A stretch of 64,000 nt of DNA, taken from positions 1,570,501 through 1,634,500 of the forward strand of contig CP131056.1 of the NCBI GenBank assembly GCA_030657355.1, written 5' to 3'. A program made the position numbers and the translations under genes. Below the pieces are notes generated by a model that worked only from the letters and a program-made list of their open reading frames with translations, had not been told where the DNA came from and searched no databases. Positions 12,652 through 25,796 of the stretch are shown piece after piece (positions within the stretch are counted from its first letter, which is position 1; each line of letters opens with the position of its first letter). The stretch is from Radicibacter daui. GTDB lineage: Bacteria > Pseudomonadota > Alphaproteobacteria > Radicibacterales > Radicibacteraceae.

Positions 12652-13590
12652 ATGCCCAACACCTCCCCCGACTCTGTAATCGATCAGGCCGACGCGCTGC
12701 GGCGCTTCAACCGCCTCTATACCCGCGAGATTGCCTTGCTGGCGGAAGACCATCTGGAAAGCGGTCTCGCCCTTGCCGAAGTGCGGCTGCTCTATGAGCT
12801 GGAGCACGGGCCGGCGCTGAGCGCGGGAGAGCTTGCCGGTTTTCTCGGCCTTGATGCCGGTTATATGAGCCGGCTTGTTACGCGCCTGCGAACCGCCGGG
12901 CTGGTGGAGCGCCAGCGCGATACCGGGGACGGGCGGCGGTGGTTTCTGAGCCTGACGGCGGCCGGCCACGCGATGCTTGCCCCGCTGGAAGAAAAGGCCC
13001 GCCGGCAGATTGCCGGCCTCTTAGGGCGTCTTGGCGAAAGCCGCACCCGGCAACTGTTGCAAGGCGCCGGCGAGATGGAGCGGGCGCTGGCCGGTACGGC
13101 GCGCCCGGTCGTGCTGCGGCAGCACCAGCCGGGGGATCTTGGCTGGATCCTGGAGCGCCACGGGGCGCTTTATGCCGGCGAATGGGGCTTCAACCAGCAG
13201 TTCGAGGCACTGGTGGCCGACGTGCTGGCGGATTTTGCCCGCCGGCATGACCCCTCACGCGAGCGTTGCTGGGTCGCGGTGCGCGATGGCGAACGGCTTG
13301 GCAGCGTCATGCTGGTCGATGCCGGGCAGACAGATATCCCTACCGCCAAACTGCGGTTGCTGCTGGTGGAGCCCTCGGCCCGGGGTCTCGGCCTCGGACG
13401 GCAGCTGGTGGCGGAGGCCATCGCCTTTGCGCGCAGCGCCGGCTACCGGCGCATGACGCTCTGGACCAATGATGTGCTGACGGCTGCGCGTGCGATTTAT
13501 CAAAAGGAGGGCTTCGGTCTCGTCAAAAGCGAGCCGCACCGGCTTTTCGGGGCGCCGATGGTGGGCGAGACCTGGGAGCGTGACCTCTGA
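12652..13590 (+). CDS. MarR-type HTH / GNAT N-acetyltransferase fusion protein
   Basis: Two-domain protein of 312 residues. Residues 1-145 form a MarR-like winged helix: ALSAGELAGFLGLDAGYMSR is the recognition region, then LVERQRDTGDGRRW the wing. Residues 150-312 are a GNAT acyltransferase domain with the acetyl-CoA motif ARGLGLGRQLV and the C-terminal AIYQKEGFGLV. Such fusions couple DNA binding to acetyl-transfer; substrate and target genes are not known. Operator-like palindromes lie immediately upstream of its own start, suggesting autoregulation. It precedes the heptose genes but is separated from them by about 90 bases, so a regulatory link to them is only possible. Confidence 0.88.
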   Translation: MPNTSPDSVIDQADALRRFNRLYTREIALLAEDHLESGLALAEVRLLYELEHGPALSAGELAGFLGLDAGYMSRLVTRLRTAGLVERQRDTGDGRRWFLSLTAAGHAMLAPLEEKARRQIAGLLGRLGESRTRQLLQGAGEMERALAGTARPVVLRQHQPGDLGWILERHGALYAGEWGFNQQFEALVADVLADFARRHDPSRERCWVAVRDGERLGSVMLVDAGQTDIPTAKLRLLLVEPSARGLGLGRQLVAEAIAFARSAGYRRMTLWTNDVLTAARAIYQKEGFGLVKSEPHRLFGAPMVGETWERDL

Positions 13591-13680
13591 GCTTTGCGGT
13601 CTTCGGGATATTGGCTCTTCCGGCGCGTCGATTGTTCTTTATTCTCCGCCCGCAAGCGACAAACGCCGGAAAGCCGAGGG

Positions 13681-14355
13681 ATGATGATGAAGCCTGCCAG
13701 TCCGTTCAAAGAGGTGCCGCTCGGCAGCGATATTCTCATCGATCCGCCCGTCAGCCAGCGGCTTGAGGCGCCCCGGCCGGCACTCTTCCTCGACCGGGAC
13801 GGCGTGGTCATCGAGCAGGTGCACTATATCTCCAGCCTTGACGATGTCCGGCTCGGCCCCGGCACGGCTGAGACGATCAGCCGGGCCAATGCGGCGGGAA
13901 TTCCCGTCGTCATCGTCACCAACCAGGCCGGCCTCGCCAAGGAGCATTTCACGCTCGATCAGTATGAGGCCGTGCATCGCGAAGTGCTGCGCCAGCTGGC
14001 CGCTGCCGGCGCCCATGTCGACCTCACGCTGGCCGCCCCGCACCATGAAGCCGGCGAGGGGCGCTGGTATCACAAGGATCACCCTTGCCGCAAACCCAAC
14101 CCGGGCATGCTGCTGGTGGCGGCCGAGCGGCTCAATATCGACCTTGCCGGCTCGGTTATTGTGGGAGATCGCGCCAGCGACCTTGAGGCCGGCAAGCGGG
14201 CTGGCGTTGCGGCAGGCTTCGGTGTTGCTGCCGGCTATGGCAAGTCGGAGCGGCAGAAAATGGCGGCGCTCGCCACGGCAGACTTCAGGGTGGAATTTCT
14301 TGCCCACCTCGGCGAGGCGGAGGAGATATTTCGCGCCCTTTCCACCGCAGCTTGA
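13681..14355 (+). CDS. gmhB: D-glycero-D-manno-heptose 1,7-bisphosphate phosphatase (HAD superfamily, GmhB-like)
   Basis: HAD phosphatase of 224 residues predicted to remove the C7 phosphate of heptose 1,7-bisphosphate. HAD motif I is LFLDRDGVV, motif II VIVTNQ and motif IV VIVGDRASDLEAGK, with CRKPNPGM as in GmhB/HisB-N. The zinc loop is altered: where GmhB has C-x-H...C-x-C, this protein reads APHHEAGEG...DHPCRKP, keeping one Cys and substituting Ala and His elsewhere. I start at ATG 13681; the GAGGG ribosome-binding site fits the in-frame ATG at 13687 equally well. The frame is open further upstream but without protein-like sequence. It opens the heptose locus. Confidence 0.82.
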   Translation: MMMKPASPFKEVPLGSDILIDPPVSQRLEAPRPALFLDRDGVVIEQVHYISSLDDVRLGPGTAETISRANAAGIPVVIVTNQAGLAKEHFTLDQYEAVHREVLRQLAAAGAHVDLTLAAPHHEAGEGRWYHKDHPCRKPNPGMLLVAAERLNIDLAGSVIVGDRASDLEAGKRAGVAAGFGVAAGYGKSERQKMAALATADFRVEFLAHLGEAEEIFRALSTAA

Positions 14356-14443
14356 GAAGGCGCGCCGGTAACCACTGATTAACCGCTTGGGAAGTTGCCT
14401 CCGCCTGCGTTAGATTCTTTTGAAAATAAACGCGGGAGCCGAA

Positions 14444-15007
14444 ATGTCTGATCGTCTCCGGGTCCGGAATTTCATTGAACGGACCCTGGAAAGTTTCGCC
14501 CGGCTCGGTGAGCTTGAAGAAATTATTGCCGAAGCCGGCGGCGTCATGCGCCGCTCTATTGAAGGCGGCGGCAAGATCATGTTCTGCGGCAACGGCGGCT
14601 CTGCGGCAGACAGCCAGCACATGGCAGCCGAGCTGATGGGACGTTACCTGATCGAGCGTAATCCCATGCCGGCCATCGCGCTGACGACGGACACCTCGGC
14701 GCTCACCGCCATCGGCAACGACTATGGCTATGACAAGGTTTTCAGCCGTCAGGTGCGGGCCCACGGCCGCCCGGGCGACGTGCTGGTGGGCATCACCACC
14801 AGCGGGAACAGCGAAAACGTGATCCAGGCCGCCCGTCAGGCCCGCGAGCAGGGCGTTTTCGTCATCGCTATGACGGGCGAGGGGGGCGGCAGGCTGGCAG
14901 CGGAGGCGGACATGCTGATCGCCGTGCCGTCAGGCCATACGCCCATTATCCAGCAGATGCACATTACCGTGGGGCACATGCTCTGCGATCTGGTTGAAAG
15001 CGGCTGA
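14444..15007 (+). CDS. gmhA: Phosphoheptose isomerase (sedoheptulose 7-phosphate isomerase)
   Basis: SIS-domain isomerase of 187 residues converting sedoheptulose 7-phosphate to D-glycero-D-manno-heptose 7-phosphate, the first step of ADP- and GDP-heptose synthesis. Diagnostic stretches are MFCGNGGSAADSQHMAAEL, TTDTSALTAIGNDYG, VGITTSGNSENV and HTPIIQQMHITVGHMLCDL. I start at ATG 14444, with GGGAG about 8 bases upstream; the open frame extends eight codons further without a better start. It follows gmhB by about 90 bases and leads into the rest of the locus. Confidence 0.94.
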   Translation: MSDRLRVRNFIERTLESFARLGELEEIIAEAGGVMRRSIEGGGKIMFCGNGGSAADSQHMAAELMGRYLIERNPMPAIALTTDTSALTAIGNDYGYDKVFSRQVRAHGRPGDVLVGITTSGNSENVIQAARQAREQGVFVIAMTGEGGGRLAAEADMLIAVPSGHTPIIQQMHITVGHMLCDLVESG

Positions 15008-15127: not shown

Positions 15128-16657
15128 TTGGCAAGCAACGTTGACGTACTGTTCATCAACCCCGGCGATCGCAAGCAGATTTACCAAAATCTCGCCGACG
15201 AGTTTAGTGCTGTGGAGCCGCCGGTTTTTGCCGGGCTGTTCGCCACCTATGCGCGCCGCCACGGATACGAGGCCGCCATCTACGACGTGCCCGCGCTGAT
15301 GGTGAGCGCGGAAGAAGCGGCAAAGGCGGCCATCGAGCACAAGCCCCGCCTCGTGGTGCTGGTAGTCTACGGTTTCCAGCCTTCCGCCTCGACGCAGAAC
15401 ATGGGCTCCGCCGGCAAGATCGCCCGCCTTATCCGCGAGGCCGCGCCGGACCTGCCGATCATGATGACGGGCACCCATCCTGCCGCGCTGCCGGAGCAGA
15501 CGATGCGGGAAGAGGCGGTGGACTTTGTCTGCGACCTTGAAGGGCCGGTTACCATCGTCAAGACGCTGGAGGCCATGGCCGCCGGCGGGGGCGAGGCCTT
15601 TGCCGCCGTTCCCAGCCTCTGGTGGCGCCGCGGCGGCGACATCGTGCGCCCGGCAACCGGGGAGCAGCTGATCAAGGACCTTGATGAGGCCATGCCCGGC
15701 ATCGCCTGGGATCTGCTGCCGATGGAGAAGTACCGTGCCCATAACTGGCACTGCTTCGACCATATCGAGCATCGCCAGCCTTATGCCGCCATCCACACCA
15801 GCCTCGGCTGTCCCTACAAGTGTAGCTTCTGCTGCATCAACGCGCCCTTCGGCAAGAACGCCTATCGCATGTGGTCGCCGAAGACGATCGTCGAGGAGAT
15901 CGACTTCCTCGTCGAGAAACACGGCGTCAAGAACATCAAGTTCGTCGACGAGATGTTCGTACTGAACCGCAGCCATGTGCTGGAAATCTGCGACCTGCTG
16001 ATCGAGCGCGGGCACGATCTCAACATCTGGGCCTATGCCCGTGTCGATACCGTGCAGGACGATATGCTCGACAAGCTCAGGGCCGCCGGCTTCAACTGGC
16101 TGTGCCTCGGCATCGAGAGTGCCAGCGCCTATGTGCGTGACGGGGCCCGCAAGGCCTTCAAGGGCGATGACATCAAGAGTGTCGTGCGCCGCATCCAGGG
16201 CGCGGGCATCCGCGTGCTCGGCAACTATATCTTCGGCCTGCCGGACGATACCTGGGAGAGCATGCGCGAGACGCTGGAGCTGGCGCTCGACATCAATACC
16301 GAGTTCGCCAATTTCTACTCGGCCATGGCCTATCCGGGTTCGGACCTCTACCGCTACGCCGTCACCAACAACATCCAGCTGCCGGCCGAGTGGAAGGATT
16401 ATTCCCAGCACGGTTTCCAGTGCACGCCGCTTGCCAATCCCAAGCTGACGGCGGCTGAAATCCTCACTTACCGCGACTACGCTTGGCAGACCTATTTCTC
16501 CGCGCCGGGCTATCTCGCGCTGGCTGAAAAAACCTTCGGCCCGGCGGTTGTCGATCATATTGCGCGCATGCGCTCTGTGCCGCTGGCGCGCGCGCAGACG
16601 GCGGCCATCCCGGCTCACGCCAAGATTTCCACCTTCCCCATTAGCTCGGTGGCCTGA
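15128..16657 (+). CDS. B12-binding-domain radical SAM protein
   Basis: Radical SAM enzyme of 509 residues with an N-terminal Rossmann-like B12-binding domain (about residues 1-160; VDVLFINPGDR at the start, LPIMMTGTHPAALPE near its end) and a radical SAM core. The iron-sulfur motif is CPYKCSFC (Cys228, Cys232, Cys235). Downstream core features are DEMFVLN, ARVDTV, WLCLGIESAS and GNYIFGLPDDT. Related enzymes (BchE, HpnP, cobalamin-dependent methylases) methylate or rearrange unactivated carbons. The start is TTG with GAGGAG about 9 bases upstream. Placement inside the heptose locus suggests a C-methylation or carbon-skeleton change on a sugar, which is inference. Confidence 0.87.
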   Translation: MASNVDVLFINPGDRKQIYQNLADEFSAVEPPVFAGLFATYARRHGYEAAIYDVPALMVSAEEAAKAAIEHKPRLVVLVVYGFQPSASTQNMGSAGKIARLIREAAPDLPIMMTGTHPAALPEQTMREEAVDFVCDLEGPVTIVKTLEAMAAGGGEAFAAVPSLWWRRGGDIVRPATGEQLIKDLDEAMPGIAWDLLPMEKYRAHNWHCFDHIEHRQPYAAIHTSLGCPYKCSFCCINAPFGKNAYRMWSPKTIVEEIDFLVEKHGVKNIKFVDEMFVLNRSHVLEICDLLIERGHDLNIWAYARVDTVQDDMLDKLRAAGFNWLCLGIESASAYVRDGARKAFKGDDIKSVVRRIQGAGIRVLGNYIFGLPDDTWESMRETLELALDINTEFANFYSAMAYPGSDLYRYAVTNNIQLPAEWKDYSQHGFQCTPLANPKLTAAEILTYRDYAWQTYFSAPGYLALAEKTFGPAVVDHIARMRSVPLARAQTAAIPAHAKISTFPISSVA

Positions 16658-16659
16658 CC

Positions 16660-17610
16660 TTGAAAGACACATCCGATACAAGGCGCCTGTTCCGGCAATT
16701 GCTGCGCATCCGCTTGATAGAAGAACGTGTGGCCGCGATTTATCCGTCGGACAAAATCAAGAGCCCCATTCATTTGTCCATCGGGCAGGAAGCCATCTCG
16801 GTGGCCGTGTGTGATGTGCTGCAGCCGCAGGACATCATAGCCGTCTCCTACCGCGGCCATGCCGGTTATCTCGCCAAGGGCGGGGACCTGAAGGGCATGA
16901 TCGCGGAGATGTATGGCAAGCCGGCCGGCTGCGCTTTTGGCAAGGGTGGCTCCATGCATCTGGTCTCGGCCGAGGCCGGGGTGATGGGCGCTTCTGCCGT
17001 GGTTGGCACCCACATTCCGCTCGCTGCCGGGCAGGCGCTCGCCGCCAAGCTGCGCGGGGAAGACAAGGTCATCGTCTGCTTCTTCGGCGATGGCGCGACC
17101 GAAGAAGGCTGTTTTGCCGAGACGCTCAACTTTGCCGCCCTCCACAAGCTGCCGCTCTTCTTCGTGTGCGAGAACAATGGCTACGCCATCCATTCGCCGC
17201 TGAAGAAGCGTTGGGCCAATCTCGATATCTGCGCCCGGGTGCGTGCCTATGGCGTGCCGGCGGTGCGCACCGAAACCAGCGACGTGACCGTGATGCGCGC
17301 AGCAGCGGAAGCGGCGGTTGCCGCGATCCGCGATGGCGAGGGGCCGCAGTTCCTTGAGGCCGTTACCTATCGCTGGCTGGAGCATGTCGGCCCCAACGAG
17401 GATTACGCCGCCGGTTATCGCAGCCGCGACGAGATGGAGCCGTGGGAGAATGAAGACCCCGTTGCCCGTCTTGCCGCGGTGATGGATGCGGCCTGGGTGG
17501 AAAAGACCCGCGCCGAGATCGCCGCCGAGATCGACGAGGCCGTCGAGTTTGCCGAGCAGAGCCCGATCCACCAGCAGGAAGATCTCTACCGTCATGTCTA
17601 TGCTCAGTGA
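16660..17610 (+). CDS. TPP-dependent 2-oxo acid dehydrogenase-type E1 alpha subunit
   Basis: Alpha subunit, 316 residues, of the family containing pyruvate and acetoin dehydrogenase E1. The thiamine diphosphate motif is GDGATEEGCF...FVCENNGYAI, and SYRGHAGYLAKGG and GKGGSMHLVS are strongly conserved. It starts at TTG two bases after the radical SAM stop, so the genes are tightly coupled; no suitable ATG exists nearby. No lipoyl (E2) or dihydrolipoamide dehydrogenase (E3) gene follows, unlike a metabolic dehydrogenase operon. The setting suggests that a two-carbon (hydroxyethyl-TPP) unit is transferred to a keto-sugar instead, but this is not shown by sequence. Confidence 0.88.
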   Translation: MKDTSDTRRLFRQLLRIRLIEERVAAIYPSDKIKSPIHLSIGQEAISVAVCDVLQPQDIIAVSYRGHAGYLAKGGDLKGMIAEMYGKPAGCAFGKGGSMHLVSAEAGVMGASAVVGTHIPLAAGQALAAKLRGEDKVIVCFFGDGATEEGCFAETLNFAALHKLPLFFVCENNGYAIHSPLKKRWANLDICARVRAYGVPAVRTETSDVTVMRAAAEAAVAAIRDGEGPQFLEAVTYRWLEHVGPNEDYAAGYRSRDEMEPWENEDPVARLAAVMDAAWVEKTRAEIAAEIDEAVEFAEQSPIHQQEDLYRHVYAQ

Positions 17611-18670
17611 GAAACCCGCGATGGCCGGCCGCCTGCTCGCCTATGTCGATGCGCTCTCCGAAGGCGTGGCGCAGGAGATGGAGCGCGACCCGAGCGTTTT
17701 CCTCTTCGGCCTTGATGTCGATGATCACAAGGCCATCCAGGGCTCCACGCGCGGCCTCGTGCAGCGCTTCGGGCCGAACCGCGTGTTCGGCACCCCGCTG
17801 TCCGAAGATGCGATGACCGGCGTTGCCATCGGCGCCGCCATGGCCGGCATGCGGCCCATCCATGTGCATATCCGCATGGATTTCCTCATGCTGTGCATGA
17901 ACCAGCTCGTGAACATTGCCGCCAAGGCCCACTATATGTTCGGCGGCGCCGTCAGTGTGCCGATGGTGGTGCGCTGCATGATCGGCAAATCCTGGGGGCA
18001 AGGCGCCCAGCACTCGCAGGGGCTGCACTCTCTCTTCATGCATATCCCCGGCCTCAAGGTCGTGGCGCCGTCCAACGCCTATGACGCCAAGGGATTGATG
18101 GCGGCGGCTATCCGCGACAACAACCCCGTCGTCTTCGTCGAGCATCGCCTGCTTTATTTCACCGACGCCTATGTGCCGGAGGAAAGCTACACGGTCGAAC
18201 TCGGCAAGGCGCGAGTGACGGCACCGGGCACCGACATCACGCTGGTGGGCGTCTCCAACATGGTGATGGAGTGCCTGCGCGCCCGCGAACTGCTGGCGCA
18301 GGTCGGCATCTCGGCCGAGGTGGTCGATCTCGTTTCGCTGCAGCCGCTCGACAGCGACACGGTGCTGGCTTCCGCCAGCAAGACCGGCAAACTTTTGATG
18401 GTGGACAACGCCTGGACCATGTGCGGTGCGAGCGCGGAAGTGCTGGCCCGCGTGGCGGAGAGTGAAGAGGGCGCCGGGGTGCGCATGGCCCGCATGGGCT
18501 TTGCCCCCACCACCTGCCCGATGTCGCCCGAGCTTGAAAAGGTCTTTTACCCCAACGCCGCGACCATCGCCGCCAAGGCCCACAGCATGCTGAGGCCGGG
18601 CAGTGACTGGATGCCGGACGAAAAGGCCGCGCAGCTTTCCTACCAGATGACCTTCCGGGGGCCGTTCTGA
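17594..18670 (+). CDS. TPP-dependent 2-oxo acid dehydrogenase-type E1 beta subunit
   Basis: Beta subunit, 358 residues, expected to form an alpha2beta2 heterotetramer with the preceding protein. Conserved segments include FGTPLSEDAMTGVAIGAAMA, GGAVSVPMVVRC, QGLHSLFMHIPGLKVVAPS and FVEHRLLYF, then a transketolase C-terminal domain from about residue 210 (TLVGVSNMVMECLRA). ATG 17594 lies inside the last codons of the alpha gene and overlaps it by 17 bases; an ATG at 17621 is the alternative. Overlap implies coupled, stoichiometric translation. The partner and sugar context argue for a biosynthetic rather than central-metabolic role. Confidence 0.88.
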   Translation: MSMLSEKPAMAGRLLAYVDALSEGVAQEMERDPSVFLFGLDVDDHKAIQGSTRGLVQRFGPNRVFGTPLSEDAMTGVAIGAAMAGMRPIHVHIRMDFLMLCMNQLVNIAAKAHYMFGGAVSVPMVVRCMIGKSWGQGAQHSQGLHSLFMHIPGLKVVAPSNAYDAKGLMAAAIRDNNPVVFVEHRLLYFTDAYVPEESYTVELGKARVTAPGTDITLVGVSNMVMECLRARELLAQVGISAEVVDLVSLQPLDSDTVLASASKTGKLLMVDNAWTMCGASAEVLARVAESEEGAGVRMARMGFAPTTCPMSPELEKVFYPNAATIAAKAHSMLRPGSDWMPDEKAAQLSYQMTFRGPF

Positions 18671-18771: not shown

Positions 18772-19947
18772 ATGTATTACGAGCTTGCCGCCTCCACCTG
18801 GGGCAAAGAAGAGACCGATGCCATCCAGCGCGTGATCGACCGCGACCGGCTGACCATGGGCGACGAGGTCAAGGCGTTCCAGAACGAGTTCGCGGCCTAT
18901 CACGGCAAGCGTTATGGCGTGATGGTCAATTCCGGCTCTTCCGCCAACCTCATCGCGGTGGCGAGCCTGTGCTTCAAGAAGGACCGGCCGCTCCAGCGCG
19001 GGGACGAGGTGATCGTGCCCGCCATCTCCTGGAGCACGACCTATCACCCGCTCCAGCAATATGGCCTCAAGCTGCGCATCGTCGATGTGGAGCTGGAGAC
19101 GCTCAATATCGATGTCTCGCAGCTGGAAGCCGCGATTACCCCGAAAACGCGCGCCATCATGGCGGTCAGCATTCTCGGCAATCCGGCAGCGCTCGATGTC
19201 ATGCGCGCCTTTGCCGACAAGCACGGGCTCTATTTCATCGAGGACAACTGCGAGAGCCTTGATGCCGAGCTGAATGGCAAGAAGGCCGGCACCTTTGGCG
19301 ACGTCACCACCTTCAGCTTCTTCTTCTCCCACCATATCGCCACCATGGAGGGCGGCATGGTGCTGACGGATGACGAGGAGCTTTATCACCTGCTGCTGGC
19401 CCTGCGCGCCCATGGCTGGACGCGTGACCTGCCGGCCGGCCCGTCGCCCATCTTCGAGCGGCGGGACGAGGATTTCTTCGAGGCCTATCGCTTTATCCTG
19501 CCGGGTTACAATGTGCGACCGCTGGAGATGAGCGGCGCCATCGGGCGCGAGCAGCTGAAGAAGCTGCCGGGCTTCACTGCCGAGCGGCGCAAGAACCTCG
19601 CCGTGTTCCAGAAGCTCTTTGGCGGGGACGAGCGCTTCATCATCCAGCGCGAGACCGGCCGCAGCTCCACCTTCTCCTTCACCATCATCCTCAACCCGGC
19701 GCTGAAGCTGGACCGCAAGGCGGCCTTTGCCGCGCTGACGAAGGCGGATATCGGCTACCGCATCATCACCGGCGGCTGCATCCTTCGGCACGATGTCATG
19801 AAGTTCTATGACTACGAGATGGTCGGCGAGGTGAAGAACGCCTTCACCGCCCATGACTGGGGCTTCTTTGTCGGCAATCAGCCCTTCGACATCTCGGACC
19901 GCATCGAGAAGCTCTATTCGGTGCTCGACGGCGCCTGCGCGCGCTGA
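18772..19947 (+). CDS. DegT/DnrJ/EryC1/StrS-fold enzyme of ColD/RfbH dehydratase type (His replaces PLP lysine)
   Basis: PLP-dependent sugar enzyme of 391 residues. The fold is clear from GVMVNSGSSANLIAVASL, FIEDNCESLDAELNGKKAGT, RAHGWTRDLP and NVRPLEMSGAIG. At the Schiff-base position, where aminotransferases have Ser-x-Lys, this protein reads FSFFFSHHIATMEGG. A His here is the hallmark of the 3-dehydratases ColD and RfbH/E1, which remove the C3 hydroxyl of a 4-keto nucleotide sugar rather than transaminate it. The RAHGWTR context resembles ColD, and no iron-sulfur cysteine cluster of the RfbH kind is obvious. No nucleotide-sugar 4,6-dehydratase is seen nearby, so the source of the 4-keto substrate is open. 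Confidence 0.87.
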   Translation: MYYELAASTWGKEETDAIQRVIDRDRLTMGDEVKAFQNEFAAYHGKRYGVMVNSGSSANLIAVASLCFKKDRPLQRGDEVIVPAISWSTTYHPLQQYGLKLRIVDVELETLNIDVSQLEAAITPKTRAIMAVSILGNPAALDVMRAFADKHGLYFIEDNCESLDAELNGKKAGTFGDVTTFSFFFSHHIATMEGGMVLTDDEELYHLLLALRAHGWTRDLPAGPSPIFERRDEDFFEAYRFILPGYNVRPLEMSGAIGREQLKKLPGFTAERRKNLAVFQKLFGGDERFIIQRETGRSSTFSFTIILNPALKLDRKAAFAALTKADIGYRIITGGCILRHDVMKFYDYEMVGEVKNAFTAHDWGFFVGNQPFDISDRIEKLYSVLDGACAR

Positions 19948-19970: not shown

Positions 19971-20912
19971 ATGGATAACTACAAGATTCTCGTGACGGGC
20001 GGCGCCGGTTATCTCGGCGGCATCATGGTGCCGGAGCTGCTGGCGCTGGGGCATGAGGTGACGGTGGTCGACAATTTCATGTTCGACCAGGCCTCCCTCG
20101 GCCATTGCTGCGCCAACCCGAAGTTTGACCTGCTGCGCGGCGATATCCGCGACAAGGCCCTGATGGCCAAACTGATGGCCAAGGCGGATGTGATCATCCC
20201 GCTGGCCGCCCTTGTCGGCGCACCGCTCTGCAACCGCGACCCTTACGCCGCCGAGCAGGTGAACCTTGAAGCGCCGCTGGGCATGATGAAGGCGCTGTCG
20301 AAAGACCAGCGCATCCTCATGCCGATCACCAACAGCGGTTATGGCGTCGGCGAAGCAGGTAAGTTCTGCACCGAAGAAACGCCGATGCGCCCCATCTCGC
20401 TCTACGGCAAACACAAGGTAGAGGTCGAGGCCGCTGTGCTGGCGCATGGCAATGCCATCAGCTTTCGCCTTGCCACCGTGTTCGGCATGGCACCGCGCAT
20501 GCGCCTTGACCTGCTGGTAAATGATTTCGTCTACCGCGCCGTCAATGATCGCGCTGTGGTGCTGTTTGAAGGCCACTTCAAGCGCAACTACATCCATGTG
20601 CGCGACGTGACGCGGGCCTTCATCCACGGTCTCGGCAAGTTTGAGGCGATGAAGGGCGAGGCCTATAATGTCGGCCTGTCCGATGCCAACCTCTCCAAGC
20701 TGGAGCTGTGTGGTCGCATCCAGAAGTTCCTGCCCAAATTCGTGCCGGTCGAGGCGCCGGTGGGCGAGGATCCGGACAAGCGCGACTACATCGTCTCCAA
20801 CGAGAAGATCGAGGCCACCGGTTTCAAGCCGGCCCATTCGCTCGATGCCGGCATCGCAGAGCTCATCAAGGGCTACCAGATGATCCGCAACAGCCGTTAC
20901 GGCAATGTCTGA
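19971..20912 (+). CDS. NAD(P)-dependent nucleotide-sugar epimerase/reductase (extended SDR)
   Basis: Extended short-chain dehydrogenase of 313 residues. The Rossmann motif is VTGGAGYLGG, the acidic NAD-binding residue follows in VVDNF, and the catalytic pair is SLYGKHK (YxxxK), with ITNSGYGVGE occupying the catalytic Ser/Thr region. That region lacks the Thr-Asp-Glu triad of 4,6-dehydratases, so epimerase or 4-keto-reductase activity is more likely. AGGAGAG lies about 10 bases upstream of the ATG. Its place after the ColD-like gene suggests that it acts on the deoxy-keto sugar product, which is inference. Confidence 0.82.
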   Translation: MDNYKILVTGGAGYLGGIMVPELLALGHEVTVVDNFMFDQASLGHCCANPKFDLLRGDIRDKALMAKLMAKADVIIPLAALVGAPLCNRDPYAAEQVNLEAPLGMMKALSKDQRILMPITNSGYGVGEAGKFCTEETPMRPISLYGKHKVEVEAAVLAHGNAISFRLATVFGMAPRMRLDLLVNDFVYRAVNDRAVVLFEGHFKRNYIHVRDVTRAFIHGLGKFEAMKGEAYNVGLSDANLSKLELCGRIQKFLPKFVPVEAPVGEDPDKRDYIVSNEKIEATGFKPAHSLDAGIAELIKGYQMIRNSRYGNV

Positions 20913-20942: not shown

Positions 20943-21698
20943 TTGAGCGCCGAGACGGCCATAACCCCGGCCGGGGTTGAGGTGCTGGTGCTTGCCGGCG
21001 GCCTTGGCACGCGCCTGCGCTCCGTGGTGCCGGAGGCGCCCAAGGTGCTGGCGCCCATCCAGGGGCGGCCGTTCCTTGACCATCTGCTGGCCTGGCTTGC
21101 CCGCTTCGGCTTTCGCCGCGCCGTGCTGTCGCTCGGCTACAAGGCAGCGATGGTGGAAGCGCATCTGGCCGGCCTTGCCGCGCCGCTTGATGTTGCCACG
21201 GTAACAGAGCCAGCACCGCTCGGCACCGGCGGGGCCATCGCCTTTTCCCGCTCCGCGCTTAGCAGCGATCCTGTGCTGGTGCTTAATGGCGACAGCTGGG
21301 TGGATGTCGATCTGCCGGCGTTTCTGGCGGCCCATGCGGCCTCCGGCGCCGATCTCTCGCTGGTCGCCGTGCCGGTCGAGAATTGCAGCCGGTTCGGTGA
21401 AGTGCAGGTGGATGAAGGCGGGCGGGTTACCGGCTTTCTGGAGAAGAACCCGGAGATGGCCCGGCCGGGCCTTATCAATGCCGGGGTCTATCTGCTGTCC
21501 GCCGCGCTGCTGGACCGTATGGCACGCGAAAAACCAACCTCTTTCGAGCGCGATGTGCTGACGCCGATGGCGGGACACGGGCTTTTTGCCCATGCCGTGC
21601 CGCCCACGCGCTTTGTCGATATCGGCACGCCGGAGAGTTTCTCCGACATCAACAGCAAGGACTGGTTCCTGGAAAAGGGCGGGGTTGCCAACTCATGA
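20943..21698 (+). CDS. hddC: Sugar-1-phosphate nucleotidyltransferase, probable D-glycero-alpha-D-manno-heptose 1-phosphate guanylyltransferase
   Basis: Nucleotidyltransferase of 251 residues with the signature VLAGGLGTRLRSVVPEAPKV followed by LAPIQGRPFLDHLL, and VLNGDSWVDVD for metal binding. The lack of a long C-terminal domain and the adjacent heptose kinase point to HddC, which makes GDP-heptose. The start is TTG 20943 with GCGAGGGG upstream; the ATG of the next gene overlaps its stop by four bases. GDP as the nucleotide is inferred from context, since specificity residues cannot be read reliably. Confidence 0.8.
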   Translation: MSAETAITPAGVEVLVLAGGLGTRLRSVVPEAPKVLAPIQGRPFLDHLLAWLARFGFRRAVLSLGYKAAMVEAHLAGLAAPLDVATVTEPAPLGTGGAIAFSRSALSSDPVLVLNGDSWVDVDLPAFLAAHAASGADLSLVAVPVENCSRFGEVQVDEGGRVTGFLEKNPEMARPGLINAGVYLLSAALLDRMAREKPTSFERDVLTPMAGHGLFAHAVPPTRFVDIGTPESFSDINSKDWFLEKGGVANS

Positions 21699-22690
21699 TC
21701 ATTACCAGAACGCCCTTCCGCGTCTCGCTCTTCGGCGGCGGCTCCGACTATCCGGCCTGGTTTACCCGCCATTCCGGCGCGGTGCTGGGTTTTGCCATCA
21801 ACAAGTACTGCTATATCAGCCTGCGCAAGCTGCCGCCCTTCTTCGAACACAAGCACCGCATCGTTTATTCGCGCGTGGAGAATGTGAAGGAAATCAGCGA
21901 GATCCAGCATCCCGCCGTGCGCGCCGTGCTGGGCGACCAGAAGGTGACACAGGGGCTTGAGATCCATCATGACGGTGACCTGCCGGCCCGCTCCGGCCTC
22001 GGCTCGTCTTCCTCTTTTACCGTCGGCCTCCTCAATGCGCTGAACGCGATGGAGGGCAAGCTCGCTTCGCCCAAATCGCTCGCCAACGAGGCGATCCGTA
22101 TCGAGCAGAAGGTGATCGGCGAGGCGGTGGGCTCGCAGGACCAGATCTGGGCGGCCTATGGCGGGCTCAACCGTATCCGCTTCTTCTCCGACGGTTCCTT
22201 CGATGTCGAGCCGCTGGTGCTGCCGCAGGAGCGCAAGACCCTGCTGGAAGATCACTGCATGCTCTTTTTCTCCGGCATCTCGCGTTACGCCGCGCAGGTG
22301 GCGGAGCGCAAGATTGCCAGCCTTGCCCAGCGCTCCAACAATGTGCGGGCGATGACCGCGATGGTGGACGAGGCGGCCAGCATGCTCGGCAACCCCACGG
22401 TGCCGATCGGCGATATCGGCATGCTGCTGCATGACAGCTGGATGCTGAAGCGCGAGCTGACCGATGGCGTCACCACGCCGGAGATCGACGAGATTTACAC
22501 GGCGGCGCGTGAGGAAGGCGCCATTGGCGGCAAGCTTCTGGGTGCCGGCGGCGGCGGTTTCGTGCTGGTGTTTGCCGAGCCGGACAAGCACGAAGCCATT
22601 CGTGCCCGCCTCAATCATCTCGTCGAGGTCGACATCAAGATCTGCTCTTCCGGCAGCCGTGTCGTCGTCTACGAACCCGATCTTTCCTGA
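21695..22690 (+). CDS. hddA: D-glycero-alpha-D-manno-heptose 7-phosphate kinase (GHMP kinase)
   Basis: GHMP-family kinase of 331 residues, predicted to phosphorylate C1 of heptose 7-phosphate, giving the 1,7-bisphosphate. It opens ITRTPFRVSLFGGGSDYPAW as HddA does, carries the ATP loop LPARSGLGSSSSFTVGLLNA and the C-terminal motif GGKLLGAGGGGFVLVF. Bifunctional HldE is the alternative route in other bacteria; a separate GHMP kinase marks the GDP-heptose branch. With gmhA, gmhB and the nucleotidyltransferase it completes the pathway. Coupled to hddC by an ATGA overlap. Confidence 0.88.
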   Translation: MIITRTPFRVSLFGGGSDYPAWFTRHSGAVLGFAINKYCYISLRKLPPFFEHKHRIVYSRVENVKEISEIQHPAVRAVLGDQKVTQGLEIHHDGDLPARSGLGSSSSFTVGLLNALNAMEGKLASPKSLANEAIRIEQKVIGEAVGSQDQIWAAYGGLNRIRFFSDGSFDVEPLVLPQERKTLLEDHCMLFFSGISRYAAQVAERKIASLAQRSNNVRAMTAMVDEAASMLGNPTVPIGDIGMLLHDSWMLKRELTDGVTTPEIDEIYTAAREEGAIGGKLLGAGGGGFVLVFAEPDKHEAIRARLNHLVEVDIKICSSGSRVVVYEPDLS

Positions 22691-22709: not shown

Positions 22710-23729
22710 ATGCTGAACAAGGTTCTGGCCGCCGAGACCACGATCTTCATCCCGACGATGAACCGCTCGGTCTTCCTCGAGCGCTGCCTGCGTTATTACG
22801 CGCTGGCCGGTTTTGCCGGCGACATCGTGGTGATGGACAGCAGCACGGGAGAGGAGCAGGCAAAAAGCCAGGCCGTGTGTGCCGCGGTCGGTCCGCACCT
22901 GCGCCGGCTCGTCTACCAGCACAATCCGCCCGAAGTGCATGTTACCCAGCTTTTCGTTTTTGCCGGGGAGCTGGCACAGACGAAATACATCACCTTCTGC
23001 GCCGATGATGATTTCCACTCCACCATCGGGCTGGAGCTCTGCCAGCAGTACCTGGAAAAGAATGAGGGGGTCGGCGGGGCGCGGGGCCAGCGGGTGGATG
23101 CGACCATTGGCGTTGCCGGCACCCATGGCAGCATCGTCAACGCGCATGTGGTGCCCTATCCGCCGCTTACCGGCGCGACGGCCTATGAGCGCATGATCAA
23201 CTACGCCAACATCGCGCTTAGCGTGCATTACAGCCTCTTCCGCACCTCGGTGTGGCGCAAGGCGCATGCGCTGCTGGCGCCGCCGCATCTCAGCTACTTC
23301 TCGGACGAGTTTTTCCTCTGCTCGTTCCTGCTCGGCCTCGGCAAGATCGAGACACTCTCGACGCTGGGCGCCGTGCGGCAACTCGATACCTCCGGCGGCC
23401 TCTGGCGGCGCACCACCATGTTCCAGCTGATCTGCAAACCGATCTGGCCGGAAGTGGCGGCGCAGTGGCGCACCAACGCCGCCGCCATCATGCGGGAGAT
23501 GGACGGGCTTTCCGAAGCCGAGGCGACGAAGAAGGCGGAAGAGATCCTCTGGGGGCACACCGCCAAGCTGCTGGCCTTCCAGTTCCAGAATCGCGAGACG
23601 GGACTGCAGCCGCCGGTGCAGAAGCCCTATGACGAGGCGCTGATGAACCAGCTGCGCGGCCTCAAGGATTTTCAGGTGATTGAACAGGTGCTGGGCGGCA
23701 CCGCTGTGCTGCCGGTGGCAGCCGGCTGA
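22710..23729 (+). CDS. TIGR00180-type glycosyltransferase-like protein
   Basis: Protein of 339 residues resembling the TIGR00180 glycosyltransferase group. The beginning TTIFIPTMNRSVFLERCLRY and the acidic motif YITFCADDDF at about residues 90-99 are typical of a GT-A fold with a DxD-like metal site. The C-terminal half is mostly helical. No signal peptide or membrane segment is seen, so it probably acts at the cytoplasmic face of the inner membrane. It follows hddA by about 20 bases and may transfer the modified heptose or a related sugar; donor and acceptor are unknown. Confidence 0.7.
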   Translation: MLNKVLAAETTIFIPTMNRSVFLERCLRYYALAGFAGDIVVMDSSTGEEQAKSQAVCAAVGPHLRRLVYQHNPPEVHVTQLFVFAGELAQTKYITFCADDDFHSTIGLELCQQYLEKNEGVGGARGQRVDATIGVAGTHGSIVNAHVVPYPPLTGATAYERMINYANIALSVHYSLFRTSVWRKAHALLAPPHLSYFSDEFFLCSFLLGLGKIETLSTLGAVRQLDTSGGLWRRTTMFQLICKPIWPEVAAQWRTNAAAIMREMDGLSEAEATKKAEEILWGHTAKLLAFQFQNRETGLQPPVQKPYDEALMNQLRGLKDFQVIEQVLGGTAVLPVAAG

Positions 23730-23745
23730 AAGGGGAGGGACGGAT

Positions 23746-24576
23746 ATGAGCGAGCTGCATTTCCCCACCGACGCCGCGGCGATCCAGGGCCGCGTTATTC
23801 GCCACCCGTGGATGGCGGCGGCCATCGGCGCGCTTGCCGGGCTCGGCAGGCCGGTCCGCATGCTGGAGATCGGCAGCTGGGCCGGCTCCTCCTGCGCCAC
23901 CTGGGGGGAGGCGCTGCGCCGCAACGGCATGGCCGGCTCCACCATCGTCTGCGTCGATCCATGGGATGGTTACATCTCCAAAACCGATATCGACAGCGAC
24001 CGTCCGGTCTATCGCCGCATGGATGAATGGGCGCGCGAGGGCCGCGTGCTGCCGCTGTTCCTCTCCAACGCCAAAGCCATTGAACAGCGCGACAGCGTGC
24101 GCGTGGTGATGATGAAGGGCTTTTCGACCGAGATTTGCCCGCTGCTGGCGCCGGAGAGTTTTGACCTCGTCTATATCGACGGCTCGCACTATTACCGCGA
24201 CGCGCTGTTCGATGTTTCCATCGGCAAGACGCTGGTGCGCGATGGCGGCATCCTGTCAGGCGACGACCTTGAAATCCAGCTCAGGGACCTGCCCGATGCC
24301 GCGACCTATCCGGAGGATGTCGACGTGCTGACCATCCCCGGGCGCGGCAATGTGCATGTGGGCGTGACTCGCGCGGTGGGTGAGCAGCTGGGTGAGGTCG
24401 GCATGGAAAACGGCTTCTGGTACACGCGCCGGGAAGGGTCGGTTTTCCGTCCCTTCGCCCTCGACACGTCAAAGGCCTTCGTCTCGGCCCATTTCGGCCC
24501 GCAGGAGCGGGCCTTTATCGCCGAGGATATCGAGAGCGGCCGGGCGAAACTGCCGAAGAGCCTGATTTCGGGCTGA
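23746..24576 (+). CDS. Class I SAM-dependent methyltransferase (Methyltransf_24 type)
   Basis: Methyltransferase of 276 residues. The SAM-binding motif I is RMLEIGSWAGSS, motif II VCVDPWDGY, and the metal or catalytic segment FDLVYIDGSHYYRDALFDVS with GGILSGDDLE follows, as in the CmcI/Methyltransf_24 group that methylates sugar or phenolic hydroxyls. ATG 23746 is preceded by AGGGGAGGGA; the open frame extends back into the glycosyltransferase gene but this start is far better. It is the last plus-strand gene of the sugar locus, ending four bases from a convergent methyltransferase gene. Likely O-methylation of the glycan or its precursor. Confidence 0.8.
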   Translation: MSELHFPTDAAAIQGRVIRHPWMAAAIGALAGLGRPVRMLEIGSWAGSSCATWGEALRRNGMAGSTIVCVDPWDGYISKTDIDSDRPVYRRMDEWAREGRVLPLFLSNAKAIEQRDSVRVVMMKGFSTEICPLLAPESFDLVYIDGSHYYRDALFDVSIGKTLVRDGGILSGDDLEIQLRDLPDAATYPEDVDVLTIPGRGNVHVGVTRAVGEQLGEVGMENGFWYTRREGSVFRPFALDTSKAFVSAHFGPQERAFIAEDIESGRAKLPKSLISG

Positions 24577-24580
24577 CGCC

Positions 24581-25696
24581 TCACGCGCTCCACAGGCGCG
24601 GTGTGCCCTTTTCCAGCGTCGGGATGATGGCTGACTGGATGAGGCGCGGGTTGGTCAGCACCTGGCTTATGGCCGCGACAAGGTTCTTAGTCGCGTTGGT
24701 GCTGAAGCCGAAATTCTGCTCGAAGAATTGCGCCCCCGGCGCCAGCGAGCGCTGGATCAGCTTGCAGTAGGAGATGATCTGCTCGTCCTCCATCTCCGCC
24801 ATGGAGAGGGTGTTGATGGCAAGATCGAGGTTGGGCACCTGCAGCGACGGGGCGTCGTAGTTGCTGACATAGGTAAAGCCCGGCCCTTCCGGCACGGGAT
24901 AGTCGGCCGTGGTCACCAGCGCGTGCGAGATGCCCGGAAAGACGGTCGCCAGATAACTGAGGCAGAAGGCCAGCGATTCCGGCAGGTCGATCAGCACGAT
25001 GCGGCTGTTGGGGATGATGCGCTTCAGGAAATAGGCAAGGCCCCCGAACCCGCTGCCGATCTCCATGATCCGGACGGTGGTGGTCTTCGACTTTTCGATG
25101 AGCGCCGGCAGGATGCCGCATTCATGCAGCAGGCAGATGCGCTCCAGATACATCCAGGTATCCTTGCTCAGCACCATGTCGTCGACGATCCAGCCGATCT
25201 CGCCGAATTTGGCCGGGAAGGAAAAGCGGTAGGCCTCCGGCAACTGGTTGGCCGTGTTGCAGAACTTATGGACGCTTTCGTCCGGGTTGCCGACCAGCAT
25301 GCGCAGGAAGCGATCATAGTCCGCCGGCAGCTTTTCGCGGATCCACGGGCGGTGCACCGCAGGGGCCAGCGTTGCCAGCTGATAACCGGAAAAAGCCTGC
25401 GAATAGAGGCGCAGCTTCTTGAGGATGTCGTAGTCGCGCTGCATCAGCAGGGCAAAGCTGGTCATGAAGGACGTCGTCTGGGCGTCGATCTCATAGACCT
25501 GCTTCTTGGTCGGATCCCAGTTGCCGGAGGGCTGGGCGGTTGCATCCAGCCTGCCTTCGCTGGTCAGCGCCTGCCGGCGGGCAATCAGCCCTTCGATCCC
25601 GCCGAGAATGGCGTTGATATTATCGAATTCCTGTTGGGAAAGTGCGGAGGAGGCGTCGGAGAAAAGAAAACCGTTCAGTCTCGGTTGCCACGCCAC
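24581..25696 (-). CDS. Putative sugar O-methyltransferase (NanM-like, TIGR04371 type)
   Basis: Protein of 371 residues with a C-terminal SAM-binding domain (RIMEIGSGFGGLAYFLKRII, then RIVLIDLPESLAF, then LAINTLSMAEMEDE), preceded by a helical domain rich in aromatic residues. This arrangement matches putative sugar O-methyltransferases found in polysaccharide clusters. I start at GTG 25696, because GAGGAG lies 6 bases upstream; a TTG at 25759 would add 21 unlikely residues. It is convergent with the preceding methyltransferase and closes the sugar locus. Confidence 0.75.
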   Translation of the reverse strand: MAWQPRLNGFLFSDASSALSQQEFDNINAILGGIEGLIARRQALTSEGRLDATAQPSGNWDPTKKQVYEIDAQTTSFMTSFALLMQRDYDILKKLRLYSQAFSGYQLATLAPAVHRPWIREKLPADYDRFLRMLVGNPDESVHKFCNTANQLPEAYRFSFPAKFGEIGWIVDDMVLSKDTWMYLERICLLHECGILPALIEKSKTTTVRIMEIGSGFGGLAYFLKRIIPNSRIVLIDLPESLAFCLSYLATVFPGISHALVTTADYPVPEGPGFTYVSNYDAPSLQVPNLDLAINTLSMAEMEDEQIISYCKLIQRSLAPGAQFFEQNFGFSTNATKNLVAAISQVLTNPRLIQSAIIPTLEKGTPRLWSA

Positions 25697-25796
25697 GTTT
25701 CTCTCCTCGTCGGTCGGGTAATTGCCTTTATTTGTACGGCTTTGGCTGTGAACAGGCAAAATAAACCGCGCGTGATCGATGGCCCAGCCAAAGAAA

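Follow-up and report, generated by a model that had tools for sequence, protein, structure and literature searches.

ColD-type enzymes remove the C3 hydroxyl of 4-keto sugars: pyridoxamine 5'-phosphate (PMP) forms a ketimine with the sugar, a histidine acts as base, the C3 hydroxyl is lost, the product is freed by hydrolysis and the cofactor is regenerated with glutamate. A predicted enzyme of this type, encoded at 18772–19947 of a 64,000-nucleotide stretch of the Radicibacter daui genome (contig CP131056.1, positions 1,570,501 to 1,634,500; the whole stretch is termed the window), was analysed together with the sugar cassette around it. It resembles ColD of Escherichia coli (2gms, 3b8x) in fold, length, the histidine that replaces lysine and the cofactor-site residues, at 49% identity; it differs in its partner, a predicted GDP-heptose C4-dehydrogenase where that of ColD is Gmd, and in residues Tyr239/Thr333/Ser133, where ColD has Phe240/Val334/Asn134. 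The partner, a short-chain dehydrogenase/reductase (SDR), is 55% identical to Cj1427 of Campylobacter jejuni (6vo6, 6vo8) and has the same TNSGYG active-site stretch; Cj1427 feeds C3/C5-epimerases and C4-reductases in C. jejuni, whereas the window cassette holds a C3-dehydratase. The logic of yersiniose formation is similar, a 4-keto sugar being 3-deoxygenated and then branched at C4 by a thiamine diphosphate (ThDP)-dependent enzyme for a surface glycan, but YerE is of the acetolactate-synthase type and acts on a CDP-hexose, while the window has an E1-type pair and GDP-heptose. The C3-dehydratase HS5.12 of C. jejuni HS:5 is alike in its described reaction, in which pyridoxal 5'-phosphate (PLP) and glutamate serve to dehydrate a GDP-4-keto heptose at C3. 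It accepts the Cj1427 product in vitro; its own cluster has a preceding 4,6-dehydratase and leads to a 3,6-dideoxyheptose (excerpts of PMC10680097). The alpha-KADH2 carboligases (paulomycin Plm8/9, avilamycin, aldgamycin, kibdelomycin) resemble the window enzyme in being E1 alpha/beta-like pairs of sugar pathways with a predicted C2 addition to a keto sugar; the cases described in the excerpts (PMC12247030, PMC4802897) lie in antibiotic clusters, whereas the window has a Gram-negative GDP-heptose cassette.

The gene at 18772–19947 almost certainly encodes a ColD-type C3-dehydratase of the DegT fold, with PMP/glutamate-dependent activity predicted from sequence and predicted fold, and its substrate is very probably a GDP-4-keto-heptose supplied by the adjoining SDR:

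18772–19947, forward strand: predicted ColD-type PMP-dependent GDP-4-keto-heptose C3-dehydratase, His187 replacing the PLP-binding lysine (phmmer against ColD 2gms, E=7.6e-119; model Z 57.8; His187 in 77/77 rows).
19971–20912, forward strand: predicted Cj1427-type GDP-heptose 4-dehydrogenase, SDR (6vo6, E=4e-114; 171/309 identical; model Z 44.5).

The dehydratase open reading frame is intact (391 aa, ATG at 18772, stop at 19945–19947) and carries a DegT_DnrJ_EryC1 domain (Pfam, 263 bits); its closest solved relative was E. coli ColD 2gms (400 bits, phmmer against PDB sequences). It contains the segment FSFFFSHHIATMEGG, whose first histidine is His187, at the lysine position. HMMER aligned His187 with His in 2gms, Asn in 3b8x and Lys in 2r0t, and the PDB titles give 3b8x as ColD H188N and 3gr9 as ColD H188K S187N; because it aligns with ColD position 188, which is Asn and Lys in mutant chains, it stands where the lysine was replaced, as a preliminary description of the stretch had stated. 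Histidine was found at this position in 77/77 aligned ColD-type rows (29 of the heptose clade, including the window, and 48 of the Gmd clade, including E. coli ColD) and is therefore neither an error nor a chance replacement; Ser186, His188, His214, Arg218 and Arg330 were likewise invariant across the 77 rows. The equivalent residue was Lys in 2/2 other DegT-family members of the same genome (genome search, E<=0.001).

The predicted dehydratase model (pLDDT 92.7) matched ColD with Z 57.8 (385 residues, root-mean-square deviation 1.4 Å; 49% of the residues of the whole chain identical), followed by E1 dehydrase (Z 51.9) and, from Z 48.3 downward, by Lys-type aminotransferases. Of the two kinships proposed at the outset, that to ColD was borne out, and that to RfbH/E1 proved distant: an RfbH/E1-type CDP-4-keto-6-deoxyglucose 3-dehydrase was ruled out by the family cut-off (NCBIfam RfbH NF011936, 266.8 bits, cut-off 423). 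The Pfam and NCBIfam scans of this analysis named neither a heptose-type nor a colitose-type ColD. The alternative that the protein has lost dehydration and either survives as a remnant or, as a slowed or modified aminotransferase or through different PLP chemistry, produces a 4-amino heptose can draw on the general point that the DegT family consists mostly of aminotransferases; this reading is scarcely credible given the six invariant residues, the intact reading frame in many genomes and the closest structures, which are dehydratases (Z 57.8 and 51.9 versus 48.3 for aminotransferases). A dead aminotransferase, already doubted in the preliminary description in favour of a ColD-like 3-dehydratase, was ruled out by the invariance of the catalytic positions.

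The SDR starts 23 bases downstream of the dehydratase. Against PDB sequences it scored 384 bits with 6vo6/6vo8 and 84 bits with the next sequence; TNSGYG and AALVGAPLC are common to it and Cj1427, and its model matched Cj1427 with Z 44.5 (1.3 Å, 306 residues), the next entry reaching Z 35.4. The title of 6vo8 reads Cj1427 with NADH and GDP-D-glycero-D-mannoheptose. The S/T-D-E triad, which we take to be the dehydratase motif of SDRs, is missing from 19971–20912, as had been observed before, and the stretch reads TNSGYG; its absence is explained if the 4-keto group is made without 4,6-dehydration. Cj1427 is NAD-dependent and oxidises C4 of GDP-D-glycero-manno-heptose, its tightly bound NADH being re-oxidised by alpha-ketoglutarate (excerpts of PMC10680097). 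By sequence, model and analogy, the window SDR is a Cj1427-type GDP-heptose C4-dehydrogenase, its substrate and NADH recycling being predicted from those of Cj1427.

The preliminary description had seen no 4,6-dehydratase nearby and had called the substrate open; none is indeed adjacent, but the substrate question is largely answered because the adjoining SDR is itself a Cj1427-type ketone-former. The 4-keto-6-deoxy sugar named in the preliminary description gives way to GDP-D-glycero-4-keto-D-lyxo-heptose as the predicted substrate, and the heptose that the description had also suggested is judged likely from the same neighbour. The genome search that it had recommended yielded no good match for a heptose 4,6-dehydratase when the enzyme of locus L126 (see below) was the query; the best match (33%, 118 bits) was the genome's Gmd. 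The name GDP-4-keto-6-deoxymannose 3-dehydratase (ColD proper) should not be used, as no Gmd is adjacent. When Cj1427 was combined with the C3-dehydratase of HS:5 in the presence of alpha-ketoglutarate, PLP and glutamate, GDP-D-glycero-4-keto-3-deoxy-heptose (m/z 616.08) was formed; the pairing was designed and, according to the excerpts, in vitro only (PMC10680097). By analogy with that experiment the pair of reactions appears chemically feasible, and the window cassette looks like its natural counterpart.

Gene coupling was analysed in a class sample of 385 genomes (E<=1e-60 for dehydratase and SDR matches), in which 30 had a dehydratase match and 28 an SDR match; in a sample of 20 relatives, no genome besides the window genome had a match. 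An SDR at least 64% identical was held by 20/20 class-sample genomes with a dehydratase at least 59% identical, on one contig within ~2.5 kb in 18/20 and on separate contigs in G270 and G177. For the comparison of loci, 20 of the 30 class-sample loci (8–18 kb) and 80 further named loci, the best 80 of 577 relatives, were combined; these 100 loci are not a complete census and include two pairs of copies (L130/L045, L066/L053). Loci with ColD at least 58% identical (29 rows, 27 distinct loci) were set against the 71 loci below 58%. The SDR lay within 6 kb in 24/27 distinct loci versus 4/71 (Fisher p=1e-15, the loci being treated as independent though related), and Gmd in 1/27 versus 53/71; the high-identity loci without SDR were L045/L130 (SDR elsewhere in the genome), L053/L066 (fragment at a contig edge) and L125 (contig edge). 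An HddA-like gene within 10 kb was found in 21/29 rows (21/27 distinct loci) versus 3/71, both E1 subunits within 8 kb in 21/29 rows (19/27 distinct loci) versus 2/71, and a radical SAM gene in 13/29 rows versus 1/71.

A maximum-likelihood tree was computed from 97 dehydratase sequences, leaving out the duplicates L130 (of L045) and L066 (of L053) and the short contigs L121 and L125. The heptose-type clade comprised 29 rows (support 100/98), with the SDR as neighbour in 26, both SDR and Gmd in 1 and neither in 2; its sister clade comprised 53 rows (support 98/86), with Gmd in 47 and neither in 6. Neighbour labels changed 14 times on the tree versus 38.2 times on shuffles, and L124 (neither neighbour, long branch) joined the heptose-type clade at weaker support. 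This clade ranges over Alphaproteobacteria including Pelagibacteraceae and over metagenome-assembled genomes (MAGs) of Myxococcales, Nitrospirota and Spirochaetota, MAG contigs being prone to misbinning. Tyr239 was present in 29/29 heptose-clade rows where 48/48 Gmd-clade rows had Phe or Trp; Thr333 and Ser133 of the heptose clade were Val and Asn, and Ile/Val/Leu/Met at position 331 was Pro, each in 48/48 Gmd-clade rows. These clade-specific residues are taken as signs of an altered sugar pocket. In L127 (Thorarchaeota MAG) and L132 (Myxococcota MAG), a distant ColD-like gene stands beside an SDR ~40% identical to that of the window with TGSMYG or TGSNYG replacing TNSGYG, possibly another ketone-former pairing.

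An ordinary ColD for a 3,6-dideoxyhexose, fed with GDP-4-keto-6-deoxymannose by a distant Gmd while the heptose genes serve another sugar, would agree with the 49% identity to E. coli ColD, with the sharing of all checked catalytic positions and with the strong Gmd of the genome (C1:170794). This is made improbable by the well-supported clade, whose members neighbour a Cj1427-like SDR (Gmd lay no farther than 6 kb away in 1/29 high-identity rows), and by the residues that differ from the Gmd clade; moreover, the annotated window cassette genes included no recognisable reductase of the colitose-synthase type. The heptose-type dehydratase is preferred, and the rest of its cassette was annotated as follows:

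13675–14355, forward strand: GmhB-like HAD phosphatase (heptose 1,7-bisphosphate), start inferred (Histidinol-ppas domain 135 bits, above cut-off; GmhB model 102 bits, below cut-off).
14420–15007, forward strand: GmhA-like sedoheptulose 7-phosphate isomerase (TIGR00441 gmhA 205.3 bits, cut-off 209.45; SIS domain).
15128–16657, forward strand: B12-binding-type radical SAM enzyme, recurrent cassette member (Radical_SAM 67.5 bits; B12-binding 53 bits; in 13/29 high-identity rows).
16660–17610, forward strand: pyruvate dehydrogenase (PDH) E1-alpha-like subunit, orphan ThDP enzyme, predicted C2 carboligase (E1_dh 215 bits; conserved beside ColD in relatives).
17594–18670, forward strand: PDH-E1-beta-like subunit of the same ThDP enzyme, start codon inferred, 17597–18667 used in searches (Transket_pyr 125 bits; Transketolase_C 100 bits).
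20943–21698, forward strand: HddC-like nucleotidyltransferase, GDP-heptose synthesis (best PDB matches 'putative 6-deoxy-D-mannoheptose pathway protein', E=1e-34; NCBIfam HddC 131 bits, cut-off 300).
21695–22690, forward strand: HddA-like GHMP kinase, heptose 7-phosphate kinase (4n3o, putative D-glycero-D-manno-heptose 7-phosphate kinase, E=7e-33; NCBIfam HddA 123 bits, cut-off 600).
22710–23729, forward strand: glycosyltransferase, candidate for transfer of the finished sugar (TIGR04440 114.5 bits, cut-off 70).
23680–24576, forward strand: class I methyltransferase, possible tailoring (Methyltransf_24 70 bits).
24581–25759, reverse strand: putative sugar O-methyltransferase, possible tailoring (TIGR04371 81 bits, cut-off 44).

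The GmhA-, GmhB-, HddC- and HddA-like genes would fit a supply of GDP-heptose. The radical SAM enzyme gave its top NCBIfam scores with HpnJ (167 bits) and BchE (145 bits), both far under their cut-offs, and its best PDB match with AprD4 (6fd2, E=5e-18; entry named putative apramycin biosynthetic oxidoreductase 4). No flippase or polymerase was recognised among the window cassette genes in domain and family scans. Just upstream of the cassette, at 12652–13590, reading of the translation by eye suggested a fusion protein with a MarR-like regulator part and a GNAT-like acetyltransferase part.

The E1 alpha/beta pair, which the preliminary description had left unconnected, suggests a further branching step. 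Three strong E1 genes and two E2 genes were found in the window genome, each E2 within ~3 kb of one of the other E1 genes and none near the cassette pair, which is an orphan because both E2 genes accompany other E1 genes; a part in a PDH complex is disfavoured since no E2 is nearby. The E1-alpha subunit carries what we take to be a ThDP motif. By Pfam domains and E2 positions the pair is an E1-type ThDP enzyme of two subunits (E1_dh / Transket_pyr) that lacks an E2 of its own, and not a single-chain decarboxylase-type enzyme of the YerE kind. E1-beta is 66–77% identical across alphaproteobacterial and myxobacterial cassettes. The high-identity loci L067 and L068, without E1, hold both halves of a split transketolase in its place, and in L069 the N-terminal half was seen and the other half was not:

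L067 7977–9778 and L068 5920–7715: split transketolase pairs beside ColD, SDR and radical SAM genes.

In the formation of aldgamycin, kosinostatin, paulomycin, avilamycin and kibdelomycin, keto sugars receive, or are proposed to receive, C2 units from E1-like alpha-KADH2 pairs (excerpts of PMC12247030, PMC4802897, PMC10338323). A role as keto-sugar carboligases has also been put forward for split-gene transketolases, the 13 counted in the review excerpt being all from Streptomycetes. Since one C2-transferring ThDP enzyme is here exchanged for another, C2 addition to the 3-deoxy-4-keto sugar is favoured; from gene content, branching after dehydration by C2 transfer to the keto sugar, the donor likely being pyruvate, is predicted with fair confidence. 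In the alphaproteobacterial locus L126 (2872–8049), a heptose 4,6-dehydratase relative (7us5, 356 bits; best PDB match GDP-D-glycero-D-manno-heptose 4,6-dehydratase) accompanies E1 alpha/beta, HddA, HddC and a ColD-like gene 41% identical, as if the ketone-former had been exchanged; this may be a possible route to a 3,6-dideoxy branched heptose. A Sulfurimonas locus (L070, 3502–14500) combines Gmd and a colitose-type ColD with GmhA-like, SDR-like and E1 alpha/beta-like genes at 33–38% identity, perhaps for a branched 3,6-dideoxyhexose.

The cassette might instead make a plain 3-deoxyheptose reduced at C4, the E1 pair having another role, e.g. in forming an acyl group of the sugar or in central metabolism. 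In several relatives (L044 4933–5898, L046 11110–12057; not recognised in the window cassette) the C4-dehydrogenase and HddC genes flank a GDP-fucose-synthase (Fcl)-like SDR, which might reduce the C4 ketone or the branch. C4-reductases act in C. jejuni heptose pathways (excerpts of PMC10680097), and L049 has no visible ThDP enzyme. The C. jejuni C4-reductases are presumably Fcl kin. This reading is nevertheless unlikely in view of both E1 subunits within 8 kb in 19/27 distinct loci, of the absence of E2 near the E1 pair in the window genome, and of the replacement of E1 in L067 and L068 by split transketolase, which belongs to another ThDP family that transfers C2 units and that, in the excerpted review, is proposed to branch keto sugars.

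In the proposed route, GDP-heptose would be converted to its 4-keto form, to the 3-deoxy-4-keto form and to a C4-branched 3-deoxyheptose for a surface glycan. The GmhA-, GmhB-, HddA- and HddC-like enzymes would build GDP-D-glycero-manno-heptose, and the Cj1427-type SDR would oxidise C4, its bound NADH probably being re-oxidised by alpha-ketoglutarate. PMP would then form a ketimine (Schiff base) with the 4-keto group; His187, unable to hold the cofactor as Lys does, would act as base and take the proton at the cofactor carbon, whereupon the C3 hydroxyl would leave, and hydrolysis would give GDP-3-deoxy-4-keto-heptose and ammonia. PLP would return to PMP via glutamate, and the alpha-ketoglutarate released may be consumed by the SDR, which would make a closed co-substrate loop. 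At the C4 ketone the orphan E1 alpha/beta enzyme would probably attach two carbons whose likely donor is pyruvate, and the resulting C9 sugar, a 3-deoxyheptose branched at C4, may be tailored by the radical SAM enzyme and the methyltransferases; we infer the branching and all later steps from gene content.

Several observations weigh against this route. The genome holds a true Gmd (529 bits, 1.4 Mb from the cassette), so that GDP-4-keto-6-deoxymannose, the ColD substrate, is probably present in the cell. The HddA, HddC and GmhB models scored under their NCBIfam cut-offs and GmhA just under, and GDP-D-glycero-manno-heptose is for that reason a presumed intermediate. Among the 18-kb loci E1-alpha was just 53–61% identical to that of the window, versus 66–77% for E1-beta; the high-identity locus L049 has SDR, HddA and HddC with no ThDP enzyme seen in 18 kb, so that branching may not be universal; and no obvious ketoreductase for the branch was recognised in the window. 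With these points included, the route as a whole, a PMP-dependent C3-dehydratase acting on GDP-D-glycero-4-keto-heptose followed by probable C4 branching for a surface glycan, is considered likely.

Wzx-type, Wzy_C, glycosyltransferase and FkbM methyltransferase genes adjoin the cassette in L042, and these neighbours make a surface polysaccharide the likely destination. More broadly, and with a modest leaning in favour, C4-branched GDP-3-deoxyheptoses may form a widespread class of C9 nucleotide sugars in Gram-negative surface glycans, assembled from an exchangeable ketone-former, a co-evolved ColD-type C3-dehydratase and a C2-adding ThDP module; the exchangeable parts seen were a Cj1427-type dehydrogenase or a heptose 4,6-dehydratase (L126) as ketone-former, and an E1 pair or split transketolase as ThDP enzyme. 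As a speculation that lies outside this estimate, the radical SAM enzyme might join the branch to the heptose side chain in a ring, so that a bradyrhizose-like carbocycle-fused sugar results. By an atom mapping made here, C4 of bradyrhizose can presumably carry a branch that closes on the heptose side chain. The ring forms of bradyrhizose in the excerpts of PMC9912281 were used beside its structure for this mapping.

The enzyme family is known, and the route is regarded as a new variant; no description of the cassette was found in titles and abstract openings of the open-licence PMC papers that full-text searches listed. Tyr239, Thr333 and Ser133 together with an SDR neighbour would serve as a marker separating heptose-type from colitose-type ColD. 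The cassette would provide a natural setting for a C4-dehydrogenase and a C3-dehydratase acting on GDP-heptose, so far combined in vitro according to the excerpts of PMC10680097, and C4-branched 3-deoxyheptoses are predicted, to be sought in e.g. Niveispirillum lacus and Magnetospirillum moscoviense. Ketone carboligases of the E1 and split-transketolase types, which the excerpted review connects mainly with antibiotic pathways, would thereby be extended to Gram-negative surface glycans.

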